56,992 nucleotides of DNA. It comes from Metallosphaera yellowstonensis MK1 (GTDB taxonomy: Archaea > Thermoproteota > Thermoprotei_A > Sulfolobales > Sulfolobaceae). This document shows positions 12,630-47,061 of the stretch, in pieces. Each line of letters opens with the position of its first letter. Position 1 is the stretch's first letter. The stretch spans positions 147,940-204,931 of the forward strand of contig NZ_JH597761.1 in NCBI RefSeq assembly GCF_000243315.1, read 5' to 3'. A model generated the notes under the pieces. The model saw nothing but the letters and a program-made list of their open reading frames with translations. It made no database searches and had not been told where the DNA came from. The translations under genes were made by a program, and so were the position numbers.

Positions 12630-14186
12630 GTGTCGGAACTCCTCGAGAGGGCGAAAGCCGAGGCCGGGAAGTACGGTAAGATCATAGGTATGGTGTCGAG
12701 GTCTAGCCCCTCCTCTGTGTCCTCGGAAAGCGGTGTGGTTCCACTTGAGGTACCCTTCAGTAACTACGTCAAGGAAAGGATAAGGATAGGGACTTTCCTA
12801 GCGGTTTACGCCCTAGTCTCCAACTCCCTGGTCCTAGGAAGGGTGGTCTCCCTGGAGAGGGAGGACGTCCTGAGCATGGCCAAGGTACCTGCCGTGGAGC
12901 CTCCTGAGGACCCCTCTACAGTCGAGACTCCCCTGAGGGTGAAGCTCGAGTTGATCTCGGAGATGAGGGACGATGTGGTGACCTCCCCCCTCTCACCTGT
13001 CGACCCACAGTCCCCGGTGTTGATCCCTGACCCAGGGCTGGTGTCCAAGATGCTCTCCCTCCCATCTCAGGGGATAGTGCTGGGTAACCTGTACTCGGGT
13101 GAGGAGACGAGTATACAGGTCAGGTTCCCGGAACACTTGCTGGACAGACACGTGGTTGTGGTAGGTACCACAGGTTCCGGGAAGACGACTTTCCTGAGAC
13201 ACCTCCTGACCGAGCTCAAGGGGAGGGCGTTTATCCTAGACCTCCAGGGGGACTACGTGGGGGTTAAGAAGGACAAGGCAGTCCTGTTACCTGTCACCCA
13301 GGCCCTCTCCAGTTACCTCCAGAAGAATGACCTCACCGAGACCGAGTTCGTGAGGGCGAGGTACCTCCAAGAGTGTAAGGCGGGAGAGCTCATAACCTGC
13401 CAGGACTTTGCCGTGAGGGTGGTCCCGTTCTCCCTCAGCCTGAAACAGGAAATAGGGGAACTCCACAGGATCTTTCCCTTCTTCTCGGAGCAGGCCTCCC
13501 TGTTCTGGCCTGTCCTGGGTCCCAAGTTGAGCGGTTCCACGCTCAAGGGGTACGGTCCGGACGCAGGACTTTGGAAATCGATAAACTCCCTCGCCGGTAA
13601 GTACAACCTGGCTCCCCAGACCATAAACAACATCCACAGGGTGCTCCTTCTCCTTTCAGAGTCAGGGATGTTTGACGAGGAGAGAGGCGAACCTCCCTGG
13701 AAAGAGGTGTTCATGGAGGATACCGTCGTAGTGGACCTGAGGAGTGCCCTAGAGTTCTCCCAGACGCCTATAGCCTACTCCTCGGTCGCCTACCTGGTGA
13801 TACACAGGGTATTCCAACAACACAATCTGGCCTACGGTGTGGAGGACCTGGGGAGGACCACGATCTTCGTGGACGAGGCCCACGAGTACTTCCCGTCCTC
13901 CGGTGTGACCGACAGGGAGGCCCTGGAGTCCCTGATCAACAGGGTCATGAGGTTAGGCAGGGTGAGGAGGTTGGGGTTCGTTATGGCCACTCACAAACCC
14001 GAGGACCTGAACGACCTGGTCCTGACCCTAGCCAACACGAGGGTGGTGTTCAGGACCTCCCAGGAGGTGCTGGAGAGGATGGGGCTCAAGAAGTACTCCA
14101 GTGTGATGAAGATGGCCCCTCCGGGACTTGCCTTGGTCTCAAGTTACGACCTGAACGAGGTGTTCCTCAAGGTTCCAGGTCCCTGA
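12630..14186 (+). CDS. herA: HerA-like hexameric DNA translocase
   Basis: The protein has 518 residues from a GTG start. Features are an N-terminal HAS-barrel-like region, Walker A GTTGSGKTT (residues 179-187), Walker B TIFVDEAHEYF (D415, E416) and a later arginine-rich segment, as in the HerA/FtsK DUF87 family. HerA translocases form rings that pump DNA and activate the NurA nuclease. The nuclease gene here is the convergent neighbour (14167-15168), overlapping by 20 bp. No Mre11 or Rad50 gene is nearby, so this is probably a second HerA/NurA set rather than the core repair operon. A TATA box at about 12600-12609 gives a leaderless start. Confidence 0.85.
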   Translation: MSELLERAKAEAGKYGKIIGMVSRSSPSSVSSESGVVPLEVPFSNYVKERIRIGTFLAVYALVSNSLVLGRVVSLEREDVLSMAKVPAVEPPEDPSTVETPLRVKLELISEMRDDVVTSPLSPVDPQSPVLIPDPGLVSKMLSLPSQGIVLGNLYSGEETSIQVRFPEHLLDRHVVVVGTTGSGKTTFLRHLLTELKGRAFILDLQGDYVGVKKDKAVLLPVTQALSSYLQKNDLTETEFVRARYLQECKAGELITCQDFAVRVVPFSLSLKQEIGELHRIFPFFSEQASLFWPVLGPKLSGSTLKGYGPDAGLWKSINSLAGKYNLAPQTINNIHRVLLLLSESGMFDEERGEPPWKEVFMEDTVVVDLRSALEFSQTPIAYSSVAYLVIHRVFQQHNLAYGVEDLGRTTIFVDEAHEYFPSSGVTDREALESLINRVMRLGRVRRLGFVMATHKPEDLNDLVLTLANTRVVFRTSQEVLERMGLKKYSSVMKMAPPGLALVSSYDLNEVFLKVPGP

Positions 14187-15168
14187 GGGCCTGGTCCACC
14201 CCGAGCCTAGTGTCGTAGTGAAGTTCCATGTCCCTGAGGTGTTGGAAGAGGATCAGGTAGGCTGAGGCTGACAACCTCTTGGAGATCCTGTCGGCTAACT
14301 CTATCTCGTAAGGGATACCGTTGGCGGTCAACCTCCTCCTGAGCTCTGGGGCGACCCTCTCCAGCAGTTCCCTGTCCAGGCTCTCGACCCTGAAGTACGA
14401 GGGTCCCTTCACCGTCTCGACCCTGAAGTAATAGGCGTACCTATCGACCCTATGCCTTAGCAGGAAGGGACCGAACACCTCCCCTCCGTACTTGGTGTGA
14501 AGTAGGTCTAGCACGGTCACGTCGTTGACCTTCCCGGTGAACTTGTCCCGTAGTGCCCTGTAGAGCCAGTGGCTGTACTCCAGCCTCTTCACCACCCCTA
14601 CCACTTCCCTCCCCTTGATCACGGTGAGCCTCTCCTGGTTGAGGGCGTCCATGACCTGACCGTAGTGTCCGCCAAAGACTGCAGTAACCAGGAGGGGTCC
14701 GTCCAGGAGGGTCACGTCACGGCACTGTTGTAGTGCCGAGTTCTCCAGGGTGACCCTCCCCTCATCGCCTATGTTATCAGCCTTATACTCCTGCGTGTAG
14801 TACTTACCCAGCCTGTCCTTGACCTGGACGAAGGAAAGGGGCTCAAGTCCCTTGAGGACCTCGAGCCTGCTCCTGAGGTAGATGAACTTCCCCCCGTGGA
14901 TGGGTACCTGAACTGTTCTCCCTCCGCCCATGTGGAGGGTGATCACTGCGACGTCGAGTCCCTGGAGTCTGAAGAACCTCGTGGACGAGTCCAGGTAGGA
15001 GAACCTCAGGCCCTTAGGAGGGGCCAACTGCGGGGTCAGTGAGACGATCTCAGTTTCACCGATCTCCGGTTCCCCAGGCTCCGTAAAGGTCAGGTCGAAG
15101 AACTCCCTGGGTAGGAGGTGCCTCAGCTCCCTCAACTTCGAGGCCAACTGCCTTATTTCTCTCTCCAC
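14167..15168 (-). CDS. nurA: NurA-domain nuclease
   Basis: This 333-residue protein from a GTG start has the NurA layout. An early acidic motif sits in FSYLDSSTRFF (D60), E142 lies in a central strand, and a second Asp follows in VTLLDGPLL (D156). The C-terminal helix contains EIELADRISKRL. NurA is a 5'-3' exonuclease and endonuclease that degrades DNA ends when bound to HerA. It converges on the HerA-like gene with a 20 bp tail overlap, so the two are transcribed from opposite sides. A TATA-like GATTTTTTACC at about 15191-15200 (minus) precedes it. Confidence 0.82.
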   Translation of the reverse strand: MEREIRQLASKLRELRHLLPREFFDLTFTEPGEPEIGETEIVSLTPQLAPPKGLRFSYLDSSTRFFRLQGLDVAVITLHMGGGRTVQVPIHGGKFIYLRSRLEVLKGLEPLSFVQVKDRLGKYYTQEYKADNIGDEGRVTLENSALQQCRDVTLLDGPLLVTAVFGGHYGQVMDALNQERLTVIKGREVVGVVKRLEYSHWLYRALRDKFTGKVNDVTVLDLLHTKYGGEVFGPFLLRHRVDRYAYYFRVETVKGPSYFRVESLDRELLERVAPELRRRLTANGIPYEIELADRISKRLSASAYLILFQHLRDMELHYDTRLGVDQALRDLEP

Positions 15169-15452: not shown

Positions 15453-16050
15453 CAGCAGTTATGGGAATCTTAGGGAGGTAATACTGAGAAGTCGGTATTG
15501 TGAGAAGTTTTTCGACGTCGTCCTGCTGAAAAGGTGCGGAAAGGGACAGATCGAGTTCGCTAGGGATAGGCCGTCAAGGCGGTCAACAGGCTGGGCGTGG
15601 TTAGGAGGAACGGGAGGAGCAGGAAGGTTAATTGACATTGTTCCTCACGGTCCTGGTAGGTGGGAGGGCCAGCGTGAGGAACGCGGCCGAGACGTTCGGG
15701 CTGGACTACACAAACCTGCTGGAGGCGTTGGGAAAGTTGCTCCACGAACATGACTCCAGGACACACGTCAGGTACCTCTACACTACCGACCTCTCGCTCA
15801 GCGGGGAGGAGATCGAGGAGGCCTACCTGGCCGGAGATCGAGGACCTCCAAGGGACGTCAAGGCCCTGGGACTCCTCGTTCTGGGGGGCTTCAGGGTTAC
15901 CTCACGATCTTCACCATCAACAACGTCGTCGGGGAACTGAGAGCTTAACCTGAGGAGCGTGGAGGCGTTCCTCATGTTCTCGAGCGTCGTTCAGGCGGAC
16001 CGTCTGGGCTGATGAAAACCTTTAAGTTACGTTAAAGTCCCATAACTGCT
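15453..16050 (+). mobile_element. Internally deleted ISC1217-like IS
   Basis: It begins CAGCAGTTATGGGAATC and ends GTTAAAGTCCCATAACTGCT, the same ends as the 1148 bp element at 25711-26858. The reading frame jumps from LDYTNLLEALGKL to RYLYTTDLSLS, so about 550 bp including the catalytic core are missing, and further frameshifts follow. It is a dead derivative that keeps both termini. Confidence 0.75.
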
Positions 16051-16736: not shown

Positions 16737-17957
16737 GTGAATAGACGAGATAGAAAACTGCTGAACGAAATAGGAAGATACTACCTACAATACAAGGGAA
16801 TCATTGATGTTGAAAAACTTCTCCCCCTGTTTCAAGGCACTACGGAAGTTCCAGTAAATGATTATACTCTTGCTTACATTTACTTTTACATTATTTATCT
16901 AGTTACAAAGGACGCAGTACTCTCAGCAAGGGAAGCGTTAAAGGAGAGACTGACGTACAGGGAATCTTCCGTGGAGTACTCGCAAGAACTGCTAGGGGAG
17001 CTCGATGTACCTAGGACAATAGAAGTTTACTCAATGAATATGGTAGCCTATTATAACTTTACTGAAGGCCTTAACGCTCCCGAGTTCTCAATCCTAGGTT
17101 ACTTGCTCAGGAGAATTTACCACCTGGTTCAAGAGAAACTTGAAGGACTGAAATATGTCGATAACGACGCTGTGCCGAAATATTTTAATTTTCTCGAAAA
17201 TTTTAAGAAGAAACTCGATGAATTGAACGATTTAAAGGAGAGATTCCCCAACGGTTATTATAGGGAACCTTCCTACATCGACCCAGAATGGTTAATGAGA
17301 GCTTATAAGGCATACTTCTTAATTAAAGGAATTGAAAGCATCAAGGTAGGAACCAGGGAGAAAGGTGCAGTTACCGAAAAGAAAATTATAAAATTCCTTC
17401 TCTGGAAACTTTATGAACTTTACGTATTTTACCTTGTGGTGAATTACTTGGACGGTAAGGGATATGATATCATCAGAAAGGACGGGGAATTCTTCGCTGA
17501 GAAGGATAACAGACTCATTAGGCTCATATTTAACACTTCCCTTTCGACGTCTTCCCTGAGAAAAGTTGACGACACGGAGGACGTAGAGAGATATAAGGGA
17601 AGGCCGGACATTTCGTTGGATGATAGGGATAGACTCCCTAAGCCCGTAATATTCGAGTGTAAGTACTCTTCTTCAGTGAGTTACATCACGATGGGCAGGT
17701 TTAAAGTGATGGCTTACACTTACGAGTACGATCCTGAAGTCACCGTTTTGGTTTACCCGGGTTTGGAAGATGGCCAAATGAATTATGACGCAGAGGACAG
17801 TGCCACTAGGGAATTGGATAAAATGGTCAGGGAGAAAGAGTTTCTCTTAGACTTTTATTATAACTCTCACTTAATTTACATGGCAATTATTGATCCTCTA
17901 AGAGATGTTGAAGAAAATTTACGTATTGTTGGTAAAATTTTGGGAAAAATAATTTAA
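16737..17957 (+). CDS. McrC-like protein with PD-(D/E)xK nuclease domain (locus 1)
   Basis: The protein has 406 residues from a GTG start. The N-terminal two thirds are helical. A conserved LWKLYELYVFYLVVNYL segment precedes the nuclease core, which shows GRPDISL (D291) and VIFECKYS (E307, K309), the D...E-x-K triad of restriction endonuclease-like folds. This is the architecture of McrC-type nucleases (also DUF2357-like proteins) that cut DNA when driven by a McrB motor. The EVE-like reader and McrB-like ATPase genes follow directly. A paralogue lies at 30231-31460. The whole locus is richer in A+T than its surroundings, which suggests horizontal arrival. Confidence 0.8.
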   Translation: MNRRDRKLLNEIGRYYLQYKGIIDVEKLLPLFQGTTEVPVNDYTLAYIYFYIIYLVTKDAVLSAREALKERLTYRESSVEYSQELLGELDVPRTIEVYSMNMVAYYNFTEGLNAPEFSILGYLLRRIYHLVQEKLEGLKYVDNDAVPKYFNFLENFKKKLDELNDLKERFPNGYYREPSYIDPEWLMRAYKAYFLIKGIESIKVGTREKGAVTEKKIIKFLLWKLYELYVFYLVVNYLDGKGYDIIRKDGEFFAEKDNRLIRLIFNTSLSTSSLRKVDDTEDVERYKGRPDISLDDRDRLPKPVIFECKYSSSVSYITMGRFKVMAYTYEYDPEVTVLVYPGLEDGQMNYDAEDSATRELDKMVREKEFLLDFYYNSHLIYMAIIDPLRDVEENLRIVGKILGKII

Positions 17958-17979
17958 GCTTTCCTTAATACTGCACTCT

Positions 17980-18639
17980 ATGTACGGTAAATGGCTGGCA
18001 GTTAGGCCCCAATTTGACAAGCTTTTCGGGAACCCTGAGGTGGCGGCGGAGGCTTTCCTAAGTTACGTTCAGGACAATAAATTTCTTCCCTGTGTTTTTA
18101 TAGGCCATAAAGACCACTGGGCCTCAGCCATAAGCTATTCAATCAAGGGTGAAACAGGTTACACCCTGTGGGGATCCGGAGACAGGAACTCAACTTCAGG
18201 AATTATTGCAAGGTATCAAGACACCTACGTTAAAACAGAAGGAAGTAAGTATCTGCCTTCTAACGAGAGAATATTAGTGGCAATTTTGAGGATTACAGGC
18301 CTAGGTGTAATAGGATTCGGTTTAGTAACTGACGTAGAGACAGACGCGATCAGGAACTTTGTTGGTTGGCGTGAAGAAGATAAGTTTTGGGTTACTAGGT
18401 TTAGGATCAAGGTATTTTGGTTGCATGAAAGCATAAGGAAAAACTTCTCTGGAAATGATGCTTGGCAAGGAGATAGCGTAGAATTAGAAGGTATTAACAC
18501 TCAAGCCAACAACTGTTATACAAGAGACAATCAAAAGGCAATAAATAGCGTTAAGCAATTCATTTCATTAAAAAAAGATGAAATTAAAGCCACGTTGGAA
18601 TTTTACGCCAGTCTATCCCCGGAAATACCTAATATCTAA
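17980..18639 (+). CDS. Stand-alone EVE/PUA-like domain protein, candidate modified-base reader
   Basis: This 219-residue protein lies between the McrC-like and McrB-like genes. Its middle (LRITGLGVIGFGLVTDVETD, then FWVTRFRIKVFWLHES) resembles EVE/YTH-type folds. There a beta-barrel reads a modified base flipped into an aromatic cage, and W, F and Y residues are abundant. In several archaeal McrBC systems this kind of domain is fused to the N-terminus of McrB; here it would be a separate subunit. The assignment comes from pattern and context and would need a profile or structure search. Its stop lies just before the likely GTG start of the next gene. Confidence 0.55.
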   Translation: MYGKWLAVRPQFDKLFGNPEVAAEAFLSYVQDNKFLPCVFIGHKDHWASAISYSIKGETGYTLWGSGDRNSTSGIIARYQDTYVKTEGSKYLPSNERILVAILRITGLGVIGFGLVTDVETDAIRNFVGWREEDKFWVTRFRIKVFWLHESIRKNFSGNDAWQGDSVELEGINTQANNCYTRDNQKAINSVKQFISLKKDEIKATLEFYASLSPEIPNI

Positions 18640-18640
18640 A

Positions 18641-19639
18641 GTGGGAGAGACTTCCAATCAACGTCAAATAAATTGCAAAAATTCTAAAGTAGAGATTAAT
18701 TTGGAGGACTTGTACTTACCGCAAGCTATGAACGACGTTTTTGTGAAGTCCTTGGAGAGGGGTAACGTTCTCTTTATCGGTCCACCGGGGGTAGGTAAGA
18801 CAAAACTAGCTATGGAGTTGGCAAGGTCTCTGAGTGGCCACGACGAGTGCGTAAACGTATTTACAGCGAATTCCCTGTGGTTTAGGAGGAATTTAATAGG
18901 TGGAGAGAGCGTAAGGGAGGGTTCTGTAATGTGGAAGAGCGGTCTACTGATTCAAGCATACGTTAAGGCCTCAAGAGTTAAGGAGGGCAATTATTACGTT
19001 ATTATAGATGAAATAAATAGAGCCGACGTGGATAAGGCTTTCGGGGAACTATTCACCATTTTCTCCAGCAGCGATCCGAAGGACTGGTTTATTCCTAGGG
19101 CCTTAATTGATGAGATAAAGAGTTACGAGGATAGGATTGACTGGTACGCAAAGGAGTTCCTTAAGATTTATGAGGAACTGGAGAGGGAGGGCAAGGAGAG
19201 CGAACCACTGAGGAGGATAAGGATTATCTCCACTATGAATCTGACCGATGCCAGGAACCTATTTTACGTGGGTGATGCACTTGCCAGGAGGTTTGTTAGC
19301 TTTTATTTTAATTATCCAAAAGGTACGGAAGACTTAGATATGTTTCTCAAGAAGTACAATTTGAGCCAGGACGAAAAAGAAGAGATAAGAAATCTCATAA
19401 GTTATTTGAGAGAAGAACTTGAAAAAGAAAAAGATAGGCTAGTCAGGTTCAACATCTCTCCGGCGAGCTTGAAGTCGGCACTGGATATTTATTTATCGTT
19501 GGAGAATAGGAACATAGATACCTTCATATTACTCTTGAAGAGTACGCTAGGGACCTTGAATCAAGATAAAATAGAAAAAATAGAAAAATTAATCGATAAA
19601 TGGAGGAAAGAAATTAAGCAACAGCAGCAACAAAAATAA
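18641..19639 (+). CDS. McrB-like AAA+ NTPase (locus 1)
   Basis: A GTG at 18641 directly after the reader gene gives 332 residues. An ATG at 18578 is possible but would overlap the previous gene by 62 bp. Walker A is GPPGVGKT (residues 47-54) and Walker B is YYVIIDEINRADVDKAFGEL. The McrB-type sensor motif is TMNLTDARN, followed by the arginine finger region DALARRF. McrB rings hydrolyse nucleotide, usually GTP, to translocate DNA and drive McrC cleavage. The protein is essentially only the motor, because the recognition module is the separate upstream gene. The C-terminus ends in a polyglutamine/lysine tail. Confidence 0.85.
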   Translation: MGETSNQRQINCKNSKVEINLEDLYLPQAMNDVFVKSLERGNVLFIGPPGVGKTKLAMELARSLSGHDECVNVFTANSLWFRRNLIGGESVREGSVMWKSGLLIQAYVKASRVKEGNYYVIIDEINRADVDKAFGELFTIFSSSDPKDWFIPRALIDEIKSYEDRIDWYAKEFLKIYEELEREGKESEPLRRIRIISTMNLTDARNLFYVGDALARRFVSFYFNYPKGTEDLDMFLKKYNLSQDEKEEIRNLISYLREELEKEKDRLVRFNISPASLKSALDIYLSLENRNIDTFILLLKSTLGTLNQDKIEKIEKLIDKWRKEIKQQQQQK

Positions 19640-22772: not shown

Positions 22773-23991
22773 CGGTAGACCCAAAATCACCTCCTTGAAA
22801 ATAAATCTATATTATTAATAAGCGGTTCTATTGATTTAAATAGAAAATCTTTTAGATAGAATAAATCATCAGAAAACAAGAGTATTAGGAGTATCCTGAA
22901 CTGCTCCCTCCTCACCTCCCCCTTGAACACGGTGTACAGGGAGTAGAGGACCGCGGCCAGCACGAAGATCAACGTGCGGAAGACGAACTTGGTGGAACTG
23001 GTGAAGGGGAGAAAGGCCTTGATGTTCCGGTAAGAGGTCTCTATGGGACCCCTCACCTTGTTGTACAACTTCAACACCTCCCCCTTCGGTAGGTCGAGGT
23101 TCGTAGCCCTAGCGAAGTAAACGAGAGTCCTCTTCTTTCTCCTGACCTTCTCCTTGCTGTACACGAGGAGCCTGAACTTGACCTGCTCGTCCCTCCTGTG
23201 CCTCTTGCTGTTCGTCTCGTACTCGCCGTCGAACTCCTGGTAGACCTTCACGTCCCCAACAGGGACGGCAATTATGTACTTGAACTGCGAAACGAAGTTG
23301 AGCACGTCAACCGTGTAGAAGCCCGCGTCGAGAGTTATCAACCTTACCTTGAACCCCATGGCGACGACTTGCTCCACGAGGGCCTTCACGACCTCATCCT
23401 TGGTCATCCCGTTCACTTGAGTGATGAAAGCTAGTAGGAGCACTTTCCCATCTTTAGTCGTCGCAGTTGCGTAGTTCCAAGAGCTCCCCTCCTCCGAACT
23501 CCCGAGCCCCTCCACCGGTCTCCCGTACCAGGTCTTGGTCGTCCAGTCTATTGAGACGTCTATCTCCTTGACTCCCTTCAGTACCTCCAAGGATATTTTC
23601 CTCACTTGTTCCAAGAGTTTCTCAATAACTTCCACCCCTTGCTCCTCCACGTAATTCCTCACGGTCTGTGGGGACACGCCGTACGCCCTCGACTTGTTCT
23701 CTACTGAATCGTTCCATAAACACGCTGAGATGAGGGTTCTCGCCACCTCTTCCCCTCTCTTTCCCTTGAAGTTCAGCATGGAAAGTAATTTATATCCTAT
23801 TTGTTGAACGTTGTTTTGGTGAGGGAGTACCGGTGTTACCATCTCACTTAATCACTTGGTAATACCACATCTCCCTCACCTTAAACCTTTCTACAACTGA
23901 ATTCTTAATACCCTTATAAATCCTGTTATTCGCTATGAGTCGATATTATACTGCCAGAATTATTTTTCATAATATGATTTTGGGTCTACCG
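22773..23991 (-). mobile_element. ISH3-like insertion sequence, copy A (1219 bp)
   Basis: The terminal inverted repeats read CGGTAGACCCAAAATCA at 22773 and TGATTTTGGGTCTACCG ending at 23991. The single transposase gene is intact. The flanks (CCAGGT and TTTAGGG) do not show a target duplication, unlike copy B at 28350, so a rearrangement probably occurred at this site. Confidence 0.88.
22787..23842 (-). CDS. DDE transposase, ISH3-like (copy A)
   Basis: This 351-residue transposase has an N-terminal helical DNA-binding part and a DDE catalytic core. First Asp in DVSIDWTTKTWYGRPV, second in LITLDAGFYTVDVLNF, and the Glu in YNKVRGPIETSYRNIKAF, a Y-x2-R-x3-E-x6-K signature of IS4-related families. 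The gene is full length and lacks stops, and differs from copy B at scattered positions plus an extra Asn near the C-terminus. It is transcribed on the minus strand and ends within a few bases of the inner terminal repeat. Confidence 0.9.
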   Translation of the reverse strand: MVTPVLPHQNNVQQIGYKLLSMLNFKGKRGEEVARTLISACLWNDSVENKSRAYGVSPQTVRNYVEEQGVEVIEKLLEQVRKISLEVLKGVKEIDVSIDWTTKTWYGRPVEGLGSSEEGSSWNYATATTKDGKVLLLAFITQVNGMTKDEVVKALVEQVVAMGFKVRLITLDAGFYTVDVLNFVSQFKYIIAVPVGDVKVYQEFDGEYETNSKRHRRDEQVKFRLLVYSKEKVRRKKRTLVYFARATNLDLPKGEVLKLYNKVRGPIETSYRNIKAFLPFTSSTKFVFRTLIFVLAAVLYSLYTVFKGEVRREQFRILLILLFSDDLFYLKDFLFKSIEPLINNIDLFSRR

Positions 23992-25710: not shown

Positions 25711-26858
25711 CAGCAGTTATGAGACTTTAACGTAACTTAAAGATTTTCATCAGCCCCAGCGGTCCGCCTAAATGACGTTCAACGGACCTGAGGAACGCCT
25801 CCACGCTCCTCAGGTTCAGCTCCCCCACCAGCTCCCTGACGACGTTGTTGATGGTGAAGATCCTGAGGTAACCCTGAAGCCCCCCAGAACGAGGAGTCCT
25901 CCAGTCCAAGGGCCTTGACGTCCCTTGGGGGGTCCTCGATCTCCCACACAACAGGCCTCCTCGACTTCCTCACTGAGCGAGAGGTCGGTCGTGTAGAGGT
26001 ACCTGGCCTGTGTCCCAGAGTCACGTTTACGTTCCTGGACTAACAACTTCACCGTAATGGCTCGGCCTCCCAGGGTCAGGTCGGCGTAGTAGACTCCGGG
26101 GGGTCTCCCACTCGGAGGTGTCCCTCCACCTCCTCGAGGGTCCCCTGGACCGACTCGACCCTGAGCTCGGTTGGACTTGAGCTCAGACACCAAGTTGTCC
26201 CTCACGAGCTTCTCGGACAGTACTGGAGTCGAAGACGACCCTGGCCACTGGAAGGACTCCTTGAGCACGTCCAACATCTCCCTGGCCAACTCGATCTCGG
26301 TCTTGAACTCGTTGACCCTCACAAATCCCACATCTTCCTCACGGCGTAGGGGAAACCGTGAACGTCCTGCCCGAGGTCCACTACGGCTACCGTGAGGAGC
26401 TTGGCCCTCTCGAACCTCCCGTGGGTGTGGCAGTAGATCCAGTAGTTCTCAGGGGCTCACGTCCCTCCCCCTGGAGCGTCGTGGTCCACGGTGTCGTCCA
26501 CGATGACGGCCACCTGACCCTTCACCAGTCTGACAGGACCTCCAGCTCCCACGCGTCGTCGAGTTCTCCCAACGCCTCCAGCAGGTTTGCGTAGTCCAAC
26601 CCGAACGTCTCGGCCGCGTTCCTCACGCTGGCCCTCCCACCTACCAAGACCATGAGGACTAGTGCCAGTTGACCTTCCTGCTCCTCCCGTTCCTCCTGAC
26701 CACGCCCAGAACCTGGTTGACCGCCTTGACCAGCCTCTCCCTAGCCAACTCGATTTGTCCCTTTCCGCATCTTTTCAGCAGGACGACGTTGAAAAATAAA
26801 AACTTCTCGCTAATACCGACTTCTTCATATTACCTCCCTAAGATTCCCATAACTGCTG
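25711..26858 (-). mobile_element. ISC1217-like IS (1148 bp), transposase degenerate
   Basis: Ends are CAGCAGTTATGAGACTTTAA at 25711 and the complement of CAGCAGTTATGGGA at the other side (26845-26858). The minus-strand transposase is split by frameshifts. Recognisable pieces run LDYANLLEALGELDD, then VAVIVDDTVDH, KLLTVAVVDLG, RYLYTTDLSLS, and end RSVERHLGGPLGLMKIFK. The length is close to that of ISC1217 of Sulfolobus, from memory; the family name needs checking. Its termini are the same as those of the short MITEs, so an active relative probably mobilised them. Part of it (26171-26204) matches a CRISPR spacer at 45149-45182. Confidence 0.72.
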
Positions 26859-26878: not shown

Positions 26879-28349
26879 ATGACCAATGAAATTGGATCCA
26901 CAACGAAGAAAGTTTTGGTCAGCCAGAGGATCGGTGAGCAGATAACTTCACGAGTAAACCAATTAAGCCACAGGGTTAACAGAGATACCGTGGAACCAAA
27001 CCAACTGTGCGGCGATCAGGGTCCCTCAGCGGTTCAGGACGTCGAGGAGGTCTTCGGTGAGACCTTAAAGTACCCGTCGACCTGTCGCGAGAAGGTGAAG
27101 TCTCTCAAGATTCTCGACCTAACTTTCACCCATATGAGTCGGGCCAACAGGGACCTCAATGACGTGAGTGAGGAGATCATAGGCCTATTTAAGAGGAACT
27201 ACGTGTTGATGATCCCGACCAGAGTTTACTTCGATCTCAAAGGACTGTTAAACGAGATGACGTCGCTGTTGGGATCAGATGATCCTTACCTCATGACTAA
27301 GTACCTCGCTTACGGTTTCTTCCTGGCCTGGAAGTACCCCGTGGTTGGTAGCTACAGCTTGACGTTTCAAAACTTTGAGGTTGCCCTGAATCCACTCCTC
27401 AAGATTTACAGGGAAATTCCTCTCCTCTTCTCTCACTCTACGGAGGGAATTCTTCCCTTCACGGAGGTCTTAAATCGCCTGACGGAAGATGACAGGAAAA
27501 AGGTCAGCGGGATCGTGCCAGTCAGGGAGGGGAAAGTTAAGACCAACGTTTACTGGCACTTCAACCTCCTACTCTACCCGCTCGCGTTGGCAGACTTCGT
27601 TAACCTTCTCCCCTACGACAGACAGGTGAGGGAAGGTGGAAAGATCTCATTCCAGGTCACTGCCCTCTACAAGGCTTTGGTGATGTGGAGCTTTCACGGG
27701 AAGTCGGATCACATGGTCCTCCAGGAGCTCGATCATGTCCTCCAGAACGCCAGGAACTTCCTTCAAGGAGGAGGAGTCGAGGAGAACCTACTGTCCTTCG
27801 ATCTACTCTCGAACTTTCGGATCGCCGTGGAGAAGTTGAACGACACCTTGTCTAGAGAACCAGGGTCTGGGTCTCTGGACTTATCCAGGCTTAGGAGGTT
27901 CCCCTCCTCCCTGACCCCCACCCTGAATGAGACCAAGGTGAATTGCAGAGGGGACGGAAACCCGGATCTTTCCGACCTTTACATACCCGTCGACCCAAGA
28001 CTGTTGGCTGCAGCCATGAGGATCGGGAACGTCCTACTGGTCGGTCCCCCAGGAGTCGGAAAGACGACCCTCGCCATGAGGTTCGCCAAGGCGATGACCG
28101 GTAGCGAGGAGTGTTACGACGTCTACACTTCGAACTCCCTTTGGTTCAGAAGGGACGTCGTGGGAGGGGAGAGCCTAGAGGGGAACAGAACTGTGTGGAG
28201 GTCTGGGTTACTGGTCAGGGCCTACGTCAAGGCCTCGAGGTTGACCGACGGTTACTTTTACGTAATCATAGATGAGATCAACAGGGCAGACGTGGACAAG
28301 GCCTTCGGGGAAATGATAACCGTGTTCTCCACCAACTCCCCGGAGGAAT
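26879..28349 (+). pseudogene. McrB-like NTPase of locus 2, 5' part, split by an IS
   Basis: The first about 350 residues are a mostly helical domain I do not recognise (for example RVYFDLKGLLNEMTSLLG). They take the place of the stand-alone reader of locus 1. The AAA+ motor follows: Walker A GPPGVGKTT (residue 389 on) and Walker B YFYVIIDEINRADVDKAFGE. The frame is cut at SPEE by an ISH3-like IS (28350-29569) and continues at 29574. Removing the IS and one copy of the 4 bp duplication GAAT restores the frame as SPEEWEVPITLVDE. The intact gene would encode about 670 residues. Disruption suggests locus 2 is now inactive. Confidence 0.85.
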
Positions 28350-29569
28350 CGGTAGACCCAAAATCACCTCCTTGAAAATAAATCTATATTAATAAGCGGT
28401 TCTATTGATTTAAGTAGAAAATCTCTTAGATAGAATAAATCATCAGAAAACAAGAGTATTAGGAGTACCCTGAACTGCTCCCTCCTCACCTCCCCCTTGA
28501 ACACGGTGTACAGGGAGTAGAGGACCGCGGCCAGCACGAAGATCAACGTGCGGAAGACGAACTTGGTGGAACTGGTGAAGGGGAGAAAGGCCTTGATGTT
28601 CCGGTAAGAGGTCTCTATGGGACCCCTCACCTTGTTGTACAACTTCAACACCTCCCCCTTCGGTAGGTCGAGGTTCGTAGCCCTAGCGAAGTAAACGAGA
28701 GTCCTCTTCTTTCTCTTAACCTTCTCCTCGCTGTACACGAGGAGCCTGAACTCGACCTGCTCGTCCCTCCTGTGCCTCTTACTGTTCGTCTCGTACTCGC
28801 CGTCGAACTCCTGGTAGACCTTCACGTTCCCAACAGGAACTCCGATTATGTACTTGAACTGCGAAACGAAGTTGAGCACGTCAACCGTGTAGAAACCAGC
28901 GTCGAGAGTCATCAACCTTACCTTGAACCCCATGGCGACGACTTGCTCCACGAGGGCCTTCACGACCTCATCCTTGGTCATCCCCTTGACTTGAGTGACG
29001 AAGGCCAGTAGGAGCACTTTCCCGTCAAACTTTGTCGTCGCAGTTGCGTAGTTCCAAGAGTTTCCCTCCTCCGAACTCCCGAGCCCTCCCACCGGTCTCC
29101 CGTACCACGTCTTGGTCGTCCAGTCTATTGAGAGGTCTATCTCCCTTACTCCCTTCAGTACCTTCAAGGATATTTTCCTCACTTGTTCCAACAGCTTTTC
29201 CACCACTTCCACCCCTTGCTCCTCCACGTAATTCCTCACGGTCTGTGGTGACACGCCATACGCCCTCGACTTGCTTTCCACCGAATCGTTCCATAAACAC
29301 GCTGAGATGAGGGTTCTCGCCACCTCTTCCCCTCTCTTTCCCTTGAAGTTCAGCATGGAAAGTAATTTATATCCTATTTGTTGTACGTTGTTTTGGTGAG
29401 GGAGTACCGGTGTTACCATCTCGCTTACTCACGTGGTAATACCACATCTCCCTCACCTTAAACCTTTCTTCAACTGAATTCTTAATACTCTTATAAATTT
29501 CTTTATCTTTTATAAATTAAATATTATCCTACCAGAAATATTTTTCATAATATGATTTTGGGTCTACCG
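28350..29569 (-). mobile_element. ISH3-like insertion sequence, copy B (1220 bp), in an McrB gene
   Basis: Terminal repeats CGGTAGACCCAAAATCA and TGATTTTGGGTCTACCG bound it. The 4 bp target duplication GAAT lies at 28346-28349 and 29570-29573. Near identity with copy A indicates recent activity. Confidence 0.93.
28364..29419 (-). CDS. DDE transposase, ISH3-like (copy B)
   Basis: This 351-residue intact transposase is nearly identical to copy A at 22787-23842. The catalytic residues lie in DLSIDWTTKTWYG, LMTLDAGFYTVD and KVRGPIETSYRNIKAF. A few substitutions (for example KLLEQVRKISLKV) show the two copies have diverged slightly. The gene fills nearly the entire element, and its stop codon lies just inside the left terminal repeat. 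Confidence 0.9.
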   Translation of the reverse strand: MVTPVLPHQNNVQQIGYKLLSMLNFKGKRGEEVARTLISACLWNDSVESKSRAYGVSPQTVRNYVEEQGVEVVEKLLEQVRKISLKVLKGVREIDLSIDWTTKTWYGRPVGGLGSSEEGNSWNYATATTKFDGKVLLLAFVTQVKGMTKDEVVKALVEQVVAMGFKVRLMTLDAGFYTVDVLNFVSQFKYIIGVPVGNVKVYQEFDGEYETNSKRHRRDEQVEFRLLVYSEEKVKRKKRTLVYFARATNLDLPKGEVLKLYNKVRGPIETSYRNIKAFLPFTSSTKFVFRTLIFVLAAVLYSLYTVFKGEVRREQFRVLLILLFSDDLFYLRDFLLKSIEPLINIDLFSRR

Positions 29570-29573
29570 GAAT

Positions 29574-30088
29574 GGGAGGTCCCAATTACGTTGGTAGACG
29601 AGGTGAGTAGATACGGTGATAACGCGGACGACACGGCGAGGGAATTCCTCAAGGTTTACCGGGAGAAGGGGAACGAGCCCCTGAGGAGGATAAGGCTCGT
29701 GGGTACCATGAACTTGGTCGACGCCAGGAACCTGTTCTATGTCGGGGACGCCCTGGCCAGGAGGTTCGTGATCTTCAATCTGGACTACCCGAAGGGGACG
29801 GAGGACTTGGATAAGATTCTTAAGTCTGGTGACTACTCCCTACCCAACGAGGAAGGGATACGTAGGTTGGTGGCCTGTCTGAGGGCTCATAAGGTCAAAC
29901 TTTCGCCCGCTACCGTGAGAACGGCGTTGGGCCTCTACAGGGAACTGGCACTTAAAGATCAGGGCTCTCTGAGGGGATTGGAGGAGTTCAAACTAAGCCT
30001 CGAACTGGCACTGGGGTCTCTGGACCCAGGCAGGTTAAAGAAGTTCAGGCAGAGTCTCCAGGAGTGCTCCCGATCCGGGGGTGCTTGA
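29574..30088 (+). pseudogene. McrB-like NTPase of locus 2, 3' part
   Basis: Downstream of the IS the frame resumes WEVPITLVDEVSRYG. It contains the McrB sensor motif TMNLVDARN and DALARRF, as in the locus 1 motor. It ends in a helical C-terminal domain (KLSPATVRTALGLYREL). Without the upstream Walker motifs the fragment cannot work alone. An ATG-type start inside the IS end would produce a short product, but I see no sign that it is used. Confidence 0.85.
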
Positions 30089-30230: not shown

Positions 30231-31460
30231 ATGAACAGGGATCGCATACTCCTGAGGAAGGTCGGACGTTACTACCTGCGGTACTGGGGGGTGGTAAACC
30301 TGGAGGACCTGCTCCGACTCTTCAGGTCTGGAGGGAGTTCAAACGTAGACAACTCGACCCTCTCCTACGTCAGGGAATACCTCCTTTTCTTAGCAACTGA
30401 GGAAGCAGTTAGGTCCGCAAGGAGAGCTAAGAGGGAGAGATCGACCTTCAAGGAGTTCGCGGTGGAGTACTCCCAGAGGAATTACGGTCCTGTGGACGTG
30501 GCGAGGACGCTCATCACTCTCCCCTACGGGCTAAAAGCCTACTTTAACTACAGGGAGGGATACGACGCTCCGGAGTACTCCCTTCTGGGCTACCTGCTCC
30601 GGAGGATTTACAGTCTGGTCAAGGCTAAGAGTAACCTAGTCAACCCCAGGAGTTCCCTGAGGGCCGCGAGGGAGGACTCACTGAGCAATCCCAACCTCGA
30701 CTTCACCAGGGACTTCAGGAAGACCTTTAACTCCCTTTCCAAGTTGAAGGACGAATTTCCGAAGGGTAAGTTCAGGAGACCCGTTTACACGGACCCGGGG
30801 TGGCTTAGGACCGCGTTCCGTGCTTTCTCCGTGACCAGGAAGGTGGAGAAGGTCGAAGTGAGCACTGATTTGGGGGACAGGAATCTCCTCAGGTTCGTGC
30901 TCTGGAAGCTCTACGAACTATACGTCTTTTACCTCATCGTCGCTTACCTGCAGGCGAGAGGTTACAAGGTGTTGAAGTCTGAAGGAGGAGGGGGACGAGG
31001 AAGGAGTTACGTTGCAGTTAAGGACGGGGAAGAGATCCTCATGTCATTTAACGTCCCGTTGGGGAACTCCAGGCTAAAGAGGGTGGACAGCCTCGAGGGC
31101 CTCAATGAGTACAGGGGTAGGCCAGACCTGGCCCTGAGAGGTAGGAAGACTTTCCTATTTGAGTCCAAGTACTCCTGGAGGCACAGCTACATCACAGCAG
31201 GAAGGTTCAAGGTGATGGCCTACGCCCTAGAGTACAGGCCTGACCTGTCTATACTGGTCTATCCGGGGCTTAAGGGAGGGAGGACATATGACGAGGAGGA
31301 AGAGGTCACTGCTAATTTACACAGGGAGGTGGAGAGGAACGGGTACCTGTGCTTTGACTACGAGGGGCAGGAGATATACATGGTGATTCTAGATCCAGGA
31401 AGGGACGATTCGGTCAACTTGGGGATTATACAGGACGTCCTGGGACCACGGCTGAGTTAG
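30231..31460 (+). CDS. McrC-like protein with PD-(D/E)xK nuclease domain (locus 2)
   Basis: This 409-residue paralogue of the protein at 16737-17957 shares VGRYYLRYWGVVNLEDLL at the start and LWKLYELYVFYLIVAYL in the middle. The nuclease core is GRPDLAL (D299) and FLFESKYS (E311, K313), so the catalytic triad is intact. It follows the interrupted McrB-like gene with a 142 bp gap. The order McrB-then-McrC is the reverse of locus 1, where the nuclease gene comes first. GC content is high, like the host, in contrast to locus 1. With its motor broken, the nuclease may be idle or may work with the locus 1 McrB. Confidence 0.8.
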   Translation: MNRDRILLRKVGRYYLRYWGVVNLEDLLRLFRSGGSSNVDNSTLSYVREYLLFLATEEAVRSARRAKRERSTFKEFAVEYSQRNYGPVDVARTLITLPYGLKAYFNYREGYDAPEYSLLGYLLRRIYSLVKAKSNLVNPRSSLRAAREDSLSNPNLDFTRDFRKTFNSLSKLKDEFPKGKFRRPVYTDPGWLRTAFRAFSVTRKVEKVEVSTDLGDRNLLRFVLWKLYELYVFYLIVAYLQARGYKVLKSEGGGGRGRSYVAVKDGEEILMSFNVPLGNSRLKRVDSLEGLNEYRGRPDLALRGRKTFLFESKYSWRHSYITAGRFKVMAYALEYRPDLSILVYPGLKGGRTYDEEEEVTANLHREVERNGYLCFDYEGQEIYMVILDPGRDDSVNLGIIQDVLGPRLS

Positions 31461-31784: not shown

Positions 31785-32426
31785 ATGAGGAGCTACGTCT
31801 TCACCCTGGGCTTTCACGAGGACTTCGTGGTGAGGAGGCTACACGGCACACATGTCTCTCCTGAGGATCACCTGCTGGCGATCACCGTGAGGCCGGTATC
31901 CAAGGGAACCATGAAGGCCTTCCAGGCGTTACAGGCATACTGCACCAAGTTATCATTGAGGGAGCCGGAACTCCTCGAGCTGGAGGGATCCAATCTGTTC
32001 TCCTTCGTGGAGCAGATATTGTCGAAGGTGAGGAGTCTGCAGGAACCCCTGATCGTAGACATCAGCGGAGGGATGAGGGCCTTGGGTGTTTCCACGCTAA
32101 TTGCGGTGCTGGCCAGCGGAAAGGATGCTGACATATATGTGACCCTGGAGAACGAGGAGGGAGAGCTCTATTTCTCCACAAGGGAATTCAGGGCCCTAGC
32201 CTCAGGCGTCACCAAGGAGAGGTACATCTTGCTCAGTGAGGTCTCCAGGAACCCCGGGATAACCGTGGACGAGCTGGCACAGAGGTTGGGCAAGACAAAG
32301 AAGACGGTGCTCAACTACGTCACTGAGATGAAGGGTGACGGGCTCTTGACCCAGAGAGGTAAGAGCGCAGGGATATTCCTGACAAAGCTGGGGGAGATAG
32401 TGGTTAAGGCGAGGGACAACAAATAG
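31785..32426 (+). CDS. csa3a: Csa3a: CARF-domain transcription regulator of CRISPR adaptation
   Basis: This 213-residue protein has an N-terminal Rossmann-like CARF domain (starting YVFTLGFHEDFVVRRL; motif VDISGGMRALG at about residues 89-99). A C-terminal winged helix-turn-helix follows (VDELAQRLGKTKKTVLNYV). Csa3 proteins bind promoters of cas genes and are controlled by cyclic oligoadenylates in Sulfolobales. Csa3a is known as an activator of the adaptation genes. Here it sits at the trailer end of the large array, 8.7 kb from csa1-cas1-cas2-cas4. It has its own TATA box about 30 bp upstream. Confidence 0.85.
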   Translation: MRSYVFTLGFHEDFVVRRLHGTHVSPEDHLLAITVRPVSKGTMKAFQALQAYCTKLSLREPELLELEGSNLFSFVEQILSKVRSLQEPLIVDISGGMRALGVSTLIAVLASGKDADIYVTLENEEGELYFSTREFRALASGVTKERYILLSEVSRNPGITVDELAQRLGKTKKTVLNYVTEMKGDGLLTQRGKSAGIFLTKLGEIVVKARDNK

Positions 32427-32812: not shown

Positions 32813-35800
32813 CTTTCAATTCTATTTAAGATCAACGAGATAGAACTCTCCAAAGACTTGGCGAACGAACAGTTTCTTTCAATTCTATTCAAGATCAACA
32901 ATATGACCTCTTAATAGGTCCCTTTATCATGTTAAGATCTTTCAATTCTATCCAAGATCACCCCAAATAGGGAAAATCACCCCCCCATCTAGAGAATGCG
33001 TTTCTTTCAATTCTATCCAAGATCAACTCTAGATTTTGTGGTCGTGCTAGCCGGCGTGTTAGCCTTTCAATTCTATCCAAGATCAACCGGGGATTGGATA
33101 GATGAGATAACCCTCTATCACCCTCATCTTTCAATTCTATCCAAGATCAACTCGATACTAAAATTAGCCTCAGTTCGGCAATAATTGACTTTCAATTCTA
33201 TCCAAGATCAACTCAAGGTCTCGATGAGGGGAGTGACAAAGGTCGCCCCAATACTTTCAATTCTATCCAAGATCAACGTGCCGATAATCTCCGGAAACGG
33301 TGTTAGGGGGAGGTTACTTTCAATTCTATCCAAGATCAACAGATTAAGAACGTGGATCGTGTTCGGCCCCATGGACTCCCTTTCAATTCTATCCAAGATC
33401 AACGAGGAACTAGAAAAAACTGGATTCGATCTCACCGATTTCTTTCAATTCTATCCAAGATCAACAGTTCGTTCTACCACGACAGCGTGAATGACCTCAA
33501 TTTACTTTCAATTCTATCCAAGATCAACACAGGGAGAGAACTGGATGAGGTTGAGAAGAAAGTAATAGCTTTCAATTCTATCCAAGATCAACGTGGTGGT
33601 GCAGGGGGTACATATGGTGGCAATAATGGCTTTCAATTCTATCAAAGATCAACGAGATAAAACCAATAATAATCAAACTAGGAAAAATCTGTTCTTTCAA
33701 TTCTATCCAAGATCAACCAGGTTTATATTGTGTTTTAGGGCGTGGGATAGAGAAAGCTTTCAATTCTATCCAAGATCAACATAAGCGTTAAATAAGTGAA
33801 GCCTAAGCGTTGATGCGTACCTTTCAATTCTATCCAAGATCAACAAATGTGCCTTGAAGATACGATATACCCGCAGGACTAGTCATTCAATTCTATCCAA
33901 GATCAACAAAGATAAAGTCAGGAGTTTAATTTAGCGTTTACGCTCGTCTTTCAATTCTATCCAAGATCAACTCAAGGCCGGGAGAACCTCATAGAGTTAC
34001 TCTGTATCACTTTCAATTCTATCCAAGATCAACAGGAGCCCCTTTGGTGTAGGATGGGAAGATCCATTGACAACTTTCAATTCTATCCAAGATCAACGGT
34101 CCGTGGATTTGTACCGTTAAATACTAGAATTTTCATCTTTCAATTCTATCCAAGATCAACGTAATCTTAAGTCGACTCGCAAAGGAACACTATATCACAA
34201 GACTTTCAATTCTATCCAAGATCAACTTGAGATACTAGAGGAGAAAGGCGTGGTAAGGAAAGACTTTCAATTCTATACAAGATCAACATACGCAAGGACT
34301 ATTACACGATATCGGCATAGCACGTGACTTTCAATTCTATCCAAGATCAACTCTACTAATTTTGTCCAACTAGTATTAGTAATAATAAGCTCTTTCAATT
34401 CTATCCAAGATCAACCAAGTAATATACAGGTGCAAAGAAGACGGCGTAGTGCTATCTTTCAATTCTATCCAAGATCAACATAATCAGTCCACCACCGTCT
34501 CCAATCGTATCTCCACCATCTTTCAATTCTATCCAAGATCAACATGTATAATTCCTTAATGTTCGAAGCAAGCAACGAATAACTTTCAATTCTATCCAAG
34601 ATCAACGTCAATCAAGAGTGGACGATAATCGATGTATACAACAGCTTTCAATTCTATCCAAGATCAACCGAACCCGTTAGGGGCAACGGTAAACGGTGGA
34701 AGTGCAGGTACCCTTTCAATTCTATCCAAGATCAACCACAGCTGGCGCTGCTGGAGGCCAAGAAACAAGAGGAAACTTTCAATTCTATCCAAGATCAACT
34801 TTTGCATACGTGCAGGCGGAAGATGAAGAGGAGGCAAAAACTTTCAATTCTATCCAAGATCAACGCTGAGGATATGTTCTAGAACTCCAGCCTCCTCTAG
34901 CTCTTTCAATTCTATCCAAGATCAACTCCACAACTTCTTCCTGACGCTACTTTACCAGTATATGGCTTTCAATTCTATCCAAGATCAACAGGACACCTAT
35001 CACTTGGTCTTTTTGAAGGGCATAGACTACCTTTCAATTCTATCCAAGATCAACGGAATATATGTCGTGTCCGCCACTGCGCTACTATCAGTCTTTCAAT
35101 TCTATCCAAGATCAACTAGTCGGCTCCTTCGTCCCCGGGCTGGGGACATTACTCTTTCAATTCTATCCAAGATCAACTTGAATATCCCGTCACCCCCTTT
35201 GAAGCCTAACATGGGTCTTTCAATTCTATCCAAGATCAACGGCACTTCGTAATACCGAGACAAACCCTAATAATTCCTTTCAATTCTATCCAAGATCAAC
35301 TCCTTCAAGAAGTCTCAACTATCTTCAGACCAAGGTGCTTTCAATTCTATCCAAGATCAACAAATTGTTGACGTTGATAGCGATCAAGTCGGCCTTTTAC
35401 CACTTTCAATTCTATCCAAGATCAACTGAACATTACTCAACACAGACCAGGCTGATTAACGTATTCCTTTCAATTCTATCCAAGATCAACAGGAGTAATG
35501 CGTGAACTCGCCCGTCCTCACGGTAATACACTTTCAATTCTATCCAAGATCAACAAAGTACGCAAATCCCATACCAGACCGTAATACAGAACTTTCAATT
35601 CTATCCAAGATCAACCGGAGACCAGATAAGTGCGTTCATGAGAGACCCTAAAACCGCTTTCAATTCTATCCAAGATCAACATAGTCAGCGGGACAACTTC
35701 TTATGTCTATGCATTAAACGCCTTTCAATTCTATCCAAGATCAACATGAAGGAGTTACGGTGACGTTCACAGACGGTATGCTCTTTCAATTCTATCCAAG

Positions 35801-38800
35801 ATCAACTCGGTTAGACGAGGACGGCAATGTTCAGATAATAAAAGAGTCTTTCAATTCTATCCAAGATCAACCCCTCCCAATATGCTCCTCCCCAGTATCA
35901 ATTTAAACGTCTTTCAATTCTATTCAAGATCAACGCTCCTGGAGCCTAGGGAGTTTCAGGGTACAACTAAGGACTTTCAATTCTATCCAAGATCAACAGG
36001 AACTATTGCGTTGACCAGGGCTTTAGGGGTGTAGGACTTTCAATTCTATCCAAGATCAACAAGATGAGGGGTGAAACGATTTATAAAGCACTCGAAGCGT
36101 CCTTTCAATTCTATCCAAGATCAACATCGCCAGGTACGATAATCGAAGGGCATGTATCGAATCCACTTTCAATTCTATCCAAGATCAACTTCGGGTCGTT
36201 CGAGTACATAGACATATACTTGCAATACTCTTTCAATTCTATCCAAGATCAACGCGAACGATATTAGTAGTCCGATGAAGTCGGCGACGCCTGCTTTCAA
36301 TTCTATCCAAGATCAACGTAGAATCGATCGCCTCCCTTGAACCCACTGATCGATTCAACTTTCAATTCTATCCAAGATCAACTCAGGATGAGGAGGTGTT
36401 AATAGAATGAGGATCATAACTTTCAATTCTATCCAAGATCAACACAAAAGGGTATGGATTGGGGACTTATCGCATTACTTATCTTTCAATTCTATCCAAG
36501 ATCAACACAGGCCAGAAGAATAAGATAGACCAGCGAAGCGGAATTGCTTTCAATTCTATCCAAGATCAACTATCAAGAACATATAGAAATATTTCAATTG
36601 CTCTTCTCTTTCAATTCTATCCAAGATCAACGTTTTCATTCTGAACAGTGATTAGCTCCCTAAGACTCACTTTCAATTCTATCCAAGATCAACGTGCAGG
36701 TGGTGCCGGCGGTACGGGCAATAGTAGTGGCTCTAAGCTTTCAATTCTATCCAAGATCAACAGAAATCGTGTCACGATTCACCTCGCAGAAACTTTTCGC
36801 CTTTCAATTCTATCCAAGATCAACATCACGTAAGGCATGACGACTGCACTCGGAAGCCCGTTCTTTCAATTCTATCCAAGATCAACCCATCAGTGGCTCT
36901 CATCGATTACACTCAATATGAGAAGTCTTTCAATTCTATCCAAGATCAACAGAGTAAGTTTGAGAATTAAAGGAAGCGGGCCCTGGCCCGGCTTTCAATT
37001 CTATCCAAGATCAACGAAGGAATCCCCTCCTTTGAACCCAGACAAAGCCTCAAGCTTTCAATTCTATCCAAGATCAACATTATAGGAGGCGTAGAGTTAG
37101 CTGTGAGTCTTTTCTTAACTTTCAATTCTATCCAAGATCAACAGAGATAGAGTCACCTAACGAACTCAGCACACACTCGGAGCCTTTCAATTCTATCCAA
37201 GATCAACCTTCAGACCAGGGTGAGGTCAACCGTATCGAGAAGTTGATGACTTTCAATTCTATCCAAGATCAACAAATTGTAAACAACGGTAATGCCCCCG
37301 TCTTCCTCCAACTTTCAATTCTATCCAAGATCAACTCGGAATTCTCTGGCGAAAAGCATCGGTAGCGATGTCACCTTTCAATTCTATCCAAGATCAACCC
37401 AGTTACTTGCAACTTCGTGTAATTCTTCAAAAGCTACTTTCAATTCTATCCAAGATCAACTGAAGGAAGTTTTTCCAACATAGCGGGGCTGAACCCGTTC
37501 GCGCTTTCAATTCTATCCAAGATCAACGCACCTATAGCCCCCCCATATAAGATGGGTTTCAAGTACGCTTTCAATTCTATCCAAGATCAACCGAGATATA
37601 TCTAGTGTCCGATGGGGGAACAGTTATTTCTTCTTTCAATTCTATCCAAGATCAACGGAGCGAGGCCATCAGAAGAGCCATCACGCAAATGGTAGCTTTC
37701 AATTCTATCCAAGATCAACCTAAGGTAAGAGGTGAGAAAAAATGCCGAGACCGTACACTTTCAATTCTATCCAAGATCAACCTGGTCTCTAGAGTAAAGA
37801 CACGATTCAACAATAAAAATACTTTCAATTCTATCCAAGATCAACATCAATAGGCTCATGGTGGAAGGTCAAAGATGCCGGTCTTTCAATTCTATCCAAG
37901 ATCAACCCGATAGGAATTACAGTGAACAAGATAGATAAAGAACTTTCAATTCTATCCAAGATCAACAATAATGCTCCATGCTTGGTGATACTATTACTGA
38001 AAATAACTTTCAATTCTATCCAAGATCAACCGTCTAGGAGGAGGAGGGGGGAAAGTCGTGATAGGCCGCTTTCAATTCTATCCAAGATCAACCCAGTCTC
38101 CAGACACTCACCTTCTTACGTGCTGATGGACTTTCAATTCTATCCAAGATCAACGCTATTTGGCCTTCAATGACAACGGTAAATTGTTGAAAAACCTTTC
38201 AATTCTATCCAAGATCAACTTGATTTTTTCCTATCTTATAAGATGAGCTGGTTTCCTCACTTTCAATTCTATCCAAGATCAACTAAGTCCTTATAGATGT
38301 CTGCCATGTTCCCCGCTAACTTCCTTTCAATTCTATCCAAGATCAACCCGAAGAGGACAAAATCCTGGAATAGTTTATGGTGTCTTTCAATTCTATCCAA
38401 GATCAACTGGATCCTCCTGGTCTATTATCCTTGCTATAGTGACCAGCTTTCAATTCTATCCAAGATCAACACAAATAAAGGAGATACTAGATGCAAGGCC
38501 TGATCGGACTCTTTCAATTCTATCCAAGATCAACGAGTTAACATAAATTGATTGTGAAGGCTGTTGTATGCTTTCAATTCTATCCAAGATCAACTCGATG
38601 TCCGGTATCGTGAAGGGGAGAGTTGAAGATCCTCTTTCAATTCTATCCAAGATCAACGTAACCTTTCATCGTCCCCTGAGAAGATGACTCCCTCCTTTCA
38701 ATTCTATCCAAGATCAACAAGAGTTCAATGTTTGAGGCGATAAATATGAGAAAACTTTCAATTCTATCCAAGATCAACCGTATACAATCACGTTGACAGG

Positions 38801-40811: not shown

Positions 40812-41123
40812 TGAAAACTTATATACTTTTACTTTTAATGTTGTACTCCTACTACCTTATAAATTTTTCCTATCTTCAAAGCGTATCACCTCCCAACTCC
40901 TTTCAGTACAAAATTCTGTAAGTATCATAGATATTTTCCATATATCCCGTTCCCAAGAAATTTCAGGTTTTCTCTATTAATGTAATTGTTCATACTATAT
41001 ATAGAGACGATATGGACATCCAAACGGAACGTTTCACGTCTTCCCGACTAAATAATTTCAATTAATAAAATATAATCACATTATTCCCAAAACTTAGGAG
41101 GACACCCGTAACTCTCGACAATA
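40812..41123 (-). promoter_or_regulatory. Leader of the large CRISPR array, divergent from csa1
   Basis: This AT-rich, gene-free 312 bp stretch lies at the leader end of the array. A TATA box GTATATAAG (minus strand, 40818-40826) lies next to the first repeat, so precursor crRNA should start inside or just before that repeat. On the plus side an AT-rich TATA-like run (about 41061-41078) and an AGGAGG ribosome-binding stretch (about 41096) serve csa1. New spacers are expected to be added here. Confidence 0.75.
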
Positions 41124-46631: not shown

Positions 46632-47061
46632 ATGTGAAACCTTTACTTCAAAACGAAAAAGTTTTACGAATCCCTCGGGGGTTTCCCTAAGACTTGTGCT
46701 AAGAGGGGAAGCGAAGGCAGAGGAGAGAGGTAAACATGGCGCTACAACACAGGATCCCGTCATCACGGTCTTAGGTCGCACTATGTGTCCCTCGTGGCCC
46801 GTTCAGAGGTCAGTTTCTCCAGGCTGAAACTTAAACGTCACGGTCTCCGGCGTGAGGGGAGAACTCCGTTCCGACTCCCTCAGCCTGACAACTTCCCTCC
46901 ACCACGGCGATGCTTCCCGTCTCTTATGGATGAACCAGACTGTCACGGTTTTACTAAAGTGAAACTACTGCTTCCTTTCTGAACTCTTCTCATCTAGTGT
47001 AACGGTTCATTTCTAGAAAAACAAGTTTATTAAGGTGTTCGACTACAGTATCAAGATAGCC
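46632..47061 (+). promoter_or_regulatory. Divergent intergenic region csa3b / csa5
   Basis: No gene is supported here. A TATA-like AGTTTATTAA at 47024-47033 fits a transcript starting just before the csa5 ATG at 47062. On the minus strand AAAACTTTTTCG at about 46654-46665 may serve csa3b. The purine- and T-rich tract near 46950-46975 could hold a Csa3 site, but I see no clear palindrome. Confidence 0.45.

Follow-up and report, generated by a model that had tools for sequence, protein, structure and literature searches.

Two neighbouring open reading frames (ORFs) in the 56,992-nucleotide stretch of Metallosphaera yellowstonensis MK1 DNA analysed here (the window) align as the two pieces of one EVE-type fused McrB gene, and the explanation we moderately favour is that a single real frame lesion splits the fused mcrB of a two-gene McrC/McrB system. 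We infer that this frame change is a true and recent mutation that impairs the system. The locus is an archaeal McrBC of Type IV, predicted to be modification-dependent by analogy with its family, in which mcrC is followed by mcrB.

All parts of the locus lie on the + strand. An intact McrC-like PD-(D/E)xK nuclease of 406 aa (16737–17957), recognised by its homologs, a profile match to 4ic1, and invariant P-D and E-x-K residues, is followed by the EVE-type reader segment in frame 1 (17980–18639), which makes up the N-terminal half of McrB and ends at a TAA stop (18637–18639), and, in frame 2, by the McrB-like AAA+ GTPase motor (18578–19639), with Walker A/B and the McrB signature intact. The preliminary description had reported three same-strand ORFs at these coordinates, in the order McrC-like nuclease, reader, and McrB-like motor; this layout is correct, and motifs and profile matches support McrC and McrB. 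It had missed that the ORFs of reader and motor share 62 nt, read in different frames, and that, taken together, they align end to end with one fused protein in relatives. Frame 2 is open from 18572 only, and the conserved part of the motor begins at approximately 18644; candidate motor starts include ATG 18578 and GTG 18641, the latter one base past the reader TAA. Directly to the left of the McrBC locus, convergent HerA-like and NurA genes occupy 12630–15168. The region of the split McrBC is flanked by two degenerate gene fragments that resemble each other and lie on opposite strands (15632–15940 and 25816–26331).

The motor matches Pfam AAA_5 (2.5e-13) and NCBIfam McrB (1.6e-14), its best solved-structure match is E. 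coli McrB chain 6hz4 (2e-14), and its Walker A (GPPGVGKT), Walker B (VIIDEINRAD), and McrB signature (MNLTD, of the form MNxxD) motifs are all intact; the Walker A/B and MNxxD elements place it among the McrB-type AAA+ GTPases. The adjacent ORF provides the PD-(D/E)xK nuclease that marks a McrBC system: its P-D and E-x-K residues are invariant in 18 of the 18 members of the McrC family, homologs of which occur in 12 genera of the order and mostly adjoin McrB. The family profile gave a single match in the PDB, chain 4ic1 (E 2.3e-4), an entry titled 'uncharacterized protein' that we take to be a Cas4-type nuclease. None of the 18 family members matched Pfam DUF2357, a match that divergence could mask, and ORF 16737–17957 had no match to Pfam PDDEXK.

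Relatives of the locus carry reader and motor in one gene. The reader was searched in 147 genomes of the order and 31 genomes of the family and, few exceptions aside, was found within frames of 530–645 aa that also contain the motor. In the five nearest relatives, the fused frame is 552 aa (G072), 567 aa (G102), 571 aa (G146), 567 aa (G131), or 569 aa (G141) long, with 50–62% identity in the reader, and more distant members possessing both reader and motor likewise have a single open frame. When the motor was followed instead, all 26 matches in the order outside this genome (E <= 1e-20) lay in frames of at least 532 aa. In 398 genomes sampled across the phylum, 39 of 42 motor matches outside this genome lay in frames of at least 465 aa. 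The exceptions comprise a motor-only 351-aa McrB ORF beside McrC with no reader upstream (G212, L167:1306–2358), a McrB broken at several places and adjoining an intact McrC (G475), and a McrB fragment located at a contig start (G388). Stand-alone reader-like ORFs are present in G050 (L022, L089:4660–5301, 213 aa) and G042 (L012, L090:5196–5873, 225 aa); no motor turned up within approximately 5 kb of either, and both lack the HW and WG motifs. Outside the window, no locus in the order, family, or phylum-wide samples divides mcrC, reader, and motor among three genes, and searches for relatives in genome contigs and viral contigs, in plasmids and phages by tblastn, and in viral contigs by junction pattern returned none. 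The preliminary description had proposed a stand-alone recognition subunit and had made this depend on whether homologous loci elsewhere possess it; examined for a separate reader, these loci lack one, and the proposal gives way to a fused gene with one frame change in its linker.

The position of that change could be narrowed by alignment. The reader aligned to residues 1–212 of fused McrB proteins (312 bits), and on a profile of the five relatives the window reader takes up positions 1–212 and the window motor positions 216–544, one directly after the other, scoring 313 bits for the reader, 532 for the motor, and 847 for the read-through. Sliding the switch point gave a plateau of 844–847 bits across 18606–18638, and these read-through scores delimit the interval of the frame 1 to frame 2 change that separates reader from motor; it thus lies in a weakly conserved linker, at or past the conserved TLEFYASL segment. 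An A7 run (18570–18576), at which a switch scored 828 bits, was also considered as the site and was ruled out, since frame-1 homology goes on past the run.

In trees of the reader, motor, and McrC, the window stands beside the same five relatives each time, with a branch no longer than theirs, which fits a recent break. A quick FastTree had grouped the window with G072 for the reader only; exchange of the reader between loci was rejected when careful trees disagreed. Conserved residues are kept in both halves and relaxed constraint is seen in neither. As no decay is visible in either half, three readings remain: a recent break, a sequence error, or halves that are still functional. The nearest relatives include members of genera g4 and g6, while G078 and G096 of the same genus stand much further away, so acquisition of the locus is plausible. 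The preliminary description had taken AT-rich composition to suggest acquisition: the difference is real (GC 0.39–0.44 in the locus versus about 0.55 on the left flank), and acquisition itself goes no further than plausible.

Membership of the reader in the EVE superfamily is likely on the basis of a bridging match. Pfam, NCBIfam, and phmmer and profile searches of the PDB gave no direct family match, and when the reader family was compared by hhalign with aligned same-order EVE proteins, the probability was 0.3%. The bridge is L019, a more distant fused reader, which matches the window reader at 8.6e-15 and the small EVE proteins L129, L131, L138, L132, and L136 at 8.8e-6 to 4.5e-4; L129, L138, and L136 pass the PF01878 cut-off. 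In a joint alignment of the reader, L019, and the EVE proteins, invariant positions (W, WG, GxG, W, and R) are held in common. Structure prediction of 17980–18639, which the preliminary description had put forward as a check, was run with single-sequence AlphaFold2 and gave a pLDDT of 32.5, too low to inform on a PUA-like fold; of its EVE assignment, the likeness through L019 to PF01878 proteins stands and a direct family match does not. Two of these loci, in two distant genomes, encode 278–290-aa proteins with an N-terminal EVE domain and a mutually similar C-terminal half (L131:1372–2241 and L136:1075–1908).

EVE-McrB is the commonest EVE architecture among defence systems (PMC7641849), and the locus resembles EVE/YTH-McrB plus McrC Type IV systems such as McrBC of Thermococcus gammatolerans (PMC7641849, PMC7680126) in its AAA+ GTPase with McrB signature, its PD-(D/E)xK nuclease partner and, in the window's relatives, an N-terminal EVE/YTH-type reader module. 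Three features set it apart from systems of this type: its reader and motor occupy different frames, divergence of the reader precludes a direct PF01878 match, and mcrC precedes mcrB. McrBC of E. coli K-12 is likewise similar in its motor, to which the 6hz4 match belongs, and truncated E. coli McrB is a model for a reader-less motor; the reader of E. coli K-12 McrB, unlike that of the window, is DUF3578.

By analogy with studied McrBC systems, the reader of the intact relatives would bind a modified base, the motor hexamer would translocate using GTP, and McrC would stimulate the motor and cut DNA. Here, the frame change in the linker (around 18606–18638) divides mcrB into two ORFs, and translation would be expected to yield McrC and a separate reader that stops at 18639. 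Reinitiation, at GTG 18641 for instance, could in addition produce a motor devoid of its reader, akin to E. coli McrB without its N terminus. E. coli McrB lacking the N-terminal domain still assembles with McrC (PMC7680126), and for this reason the split would be expected to leave a motor that can assemble with McrC and is untargeted, unless reader and motor meet in trans. Restriction is therefore probably lost or weakened in this genome.

Besides this gene, the genome contains a single further McrB of the family (26879–30088), which is also interrupted; there is no intact copy. Its 5′ part (26879–28349, + strand), comprising an approximately 370-aa N-terminal module and the start of the motor, is separated from the 3′ part of the motor (29570–30088, + strand; 50% identical to residues 169–339 of the first motor) by an ISH3-family insertion sequence of 1,220 bp on the - strand (28350–29569). 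This element has terminal inverted repeats CGGTAGACCCAAAATC and a 4-bp target duplication, GAAT, and joining its flanks without it restores a 661-aa open frame. Its transposase is near-identical to that of an element copy at 22773–23991, which scores 299 bits against NCBIfam ISH3. An intact second McrC-like nuclease of 409 aa follows (30231–31460, + strand; E 6.2e-99 to the first McrC). The N-terminal module of the second McrB (26879–27989) had no Pfam family match, and in BLASTP it showed no resemblance to the module of equal length in the second McrB of G072; it is possibly an undescribed specificity module. Further to the right is a long CRISPR array (32813–41000), in which a unit containing CTTTCAATTCTATCCAAGATCAAC occurs at least 117 times; near the array lie a csa3-like gene (31785–32426), csa1 (41124–42011), cas1 (42142–43053), csa2, and cas3-like genes.

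Decayed copies of the family are also found elsewhere: a McrC with a TGA in G125, a motor fragment with a TAA in G084, a reader fragment with two TAA codons in G150, a copy with a stop in G218, and the frame-broken McrB of G475. McrB loss is hence a recurrent fate, and this recurrence favours an impaired system in the window. A precedent for a lesion of this kind exists in Pyrococcus furiosus, where a one-nucleotide insertion splits the chitinase gene into two ORFs (PF1233/PF1234) and the strain is unable to use chitin for growth (PMC3575233). This, too, is an archaeal gene cut by one nucleotide whose sequence is still highly conserved, although its function is unrelated. What speaks against a lesion is that the catalytic motifs are all intact and that reader and motor display no relaxed constraint.

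The same retained constraint in both halves, together with the fact that one frame change is alone at fault, would also be expected if the change were a sequencing or assembly error and the organism had an intact fused McrB in an ordinary two-gene system. The assembly is a draft of 21 contigs, and the weakly conserved linker holds a short C run; however, completeness of the genome is 99.98% and contamination 0.28%, and other multi-gene stretches of the window, such as 47035–52530, tile unbroken, and we regard an error as unlikely. Rather unlikely, in turn, is a functional split, with reader and motor made separately through coupled translation at TAA-A-GTG (18637–18643) and acting in trans with McrC. 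The spacing of stop and GTG is compatible with coupling, conserved residues are retained on both sides of the break, and G212 provides a motor-only McrB adjoining McrC. Some McrBC-like systems do encode parts separately, such as the coiled-coil CnuA of Type I-B CoCoNuTs (PMC11090510), which resemble the window in that the McrB-like GTPase and accessory parts are products of separate genes; unlike in the window, the separate protein bears the coiled coil and the YTH-like domain remains in the GTPase protein. Against a functional split, no relative in the samples searched has a separate reader adjoining a motor-only McrB, the GTG is weak evidence given that frame-2 start codons are frequent (seven in 18572–18754), and this genome's other McrB is likewise disrupted. 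We hold it to be doubtful that McrB has recently fissioned into an EVE-type reader and a reader-less motor, encoded by coupled ORFs and cooperating in trans with McrC, with the reader as a detachable specificity subunit.

Rejoining of the frames into a fused protein by ribosomal frameshifting or transcriptional slippage seems very improbable. For an archaeal alpha-fucosidase gene, programmed frameshifting of the minus-1 type is established (PMC8037382), and the A7 run at 18570–18576 could be thought of as a slippery site; yet the shift required is +1, the run lies upstream of a stretch in which frame 1 remains the homologous frame, and such a signal is conserved in no relative, all of them being in frame. 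The frame lesion remains the explanation that we prefer.

Three ordered neighbouring ORFs thus mimicked a new subunit architecture, and comparison with intact relatives, in which one fused gene is found, removes this false lead. In its place, a diverged EVE-type McrB family is documented across genomes of the archaeal family and phylum, with repeated decay of McrB. Should the split prove functional, the locus would constitute a natural test of the need of McrB for its reader in cis.
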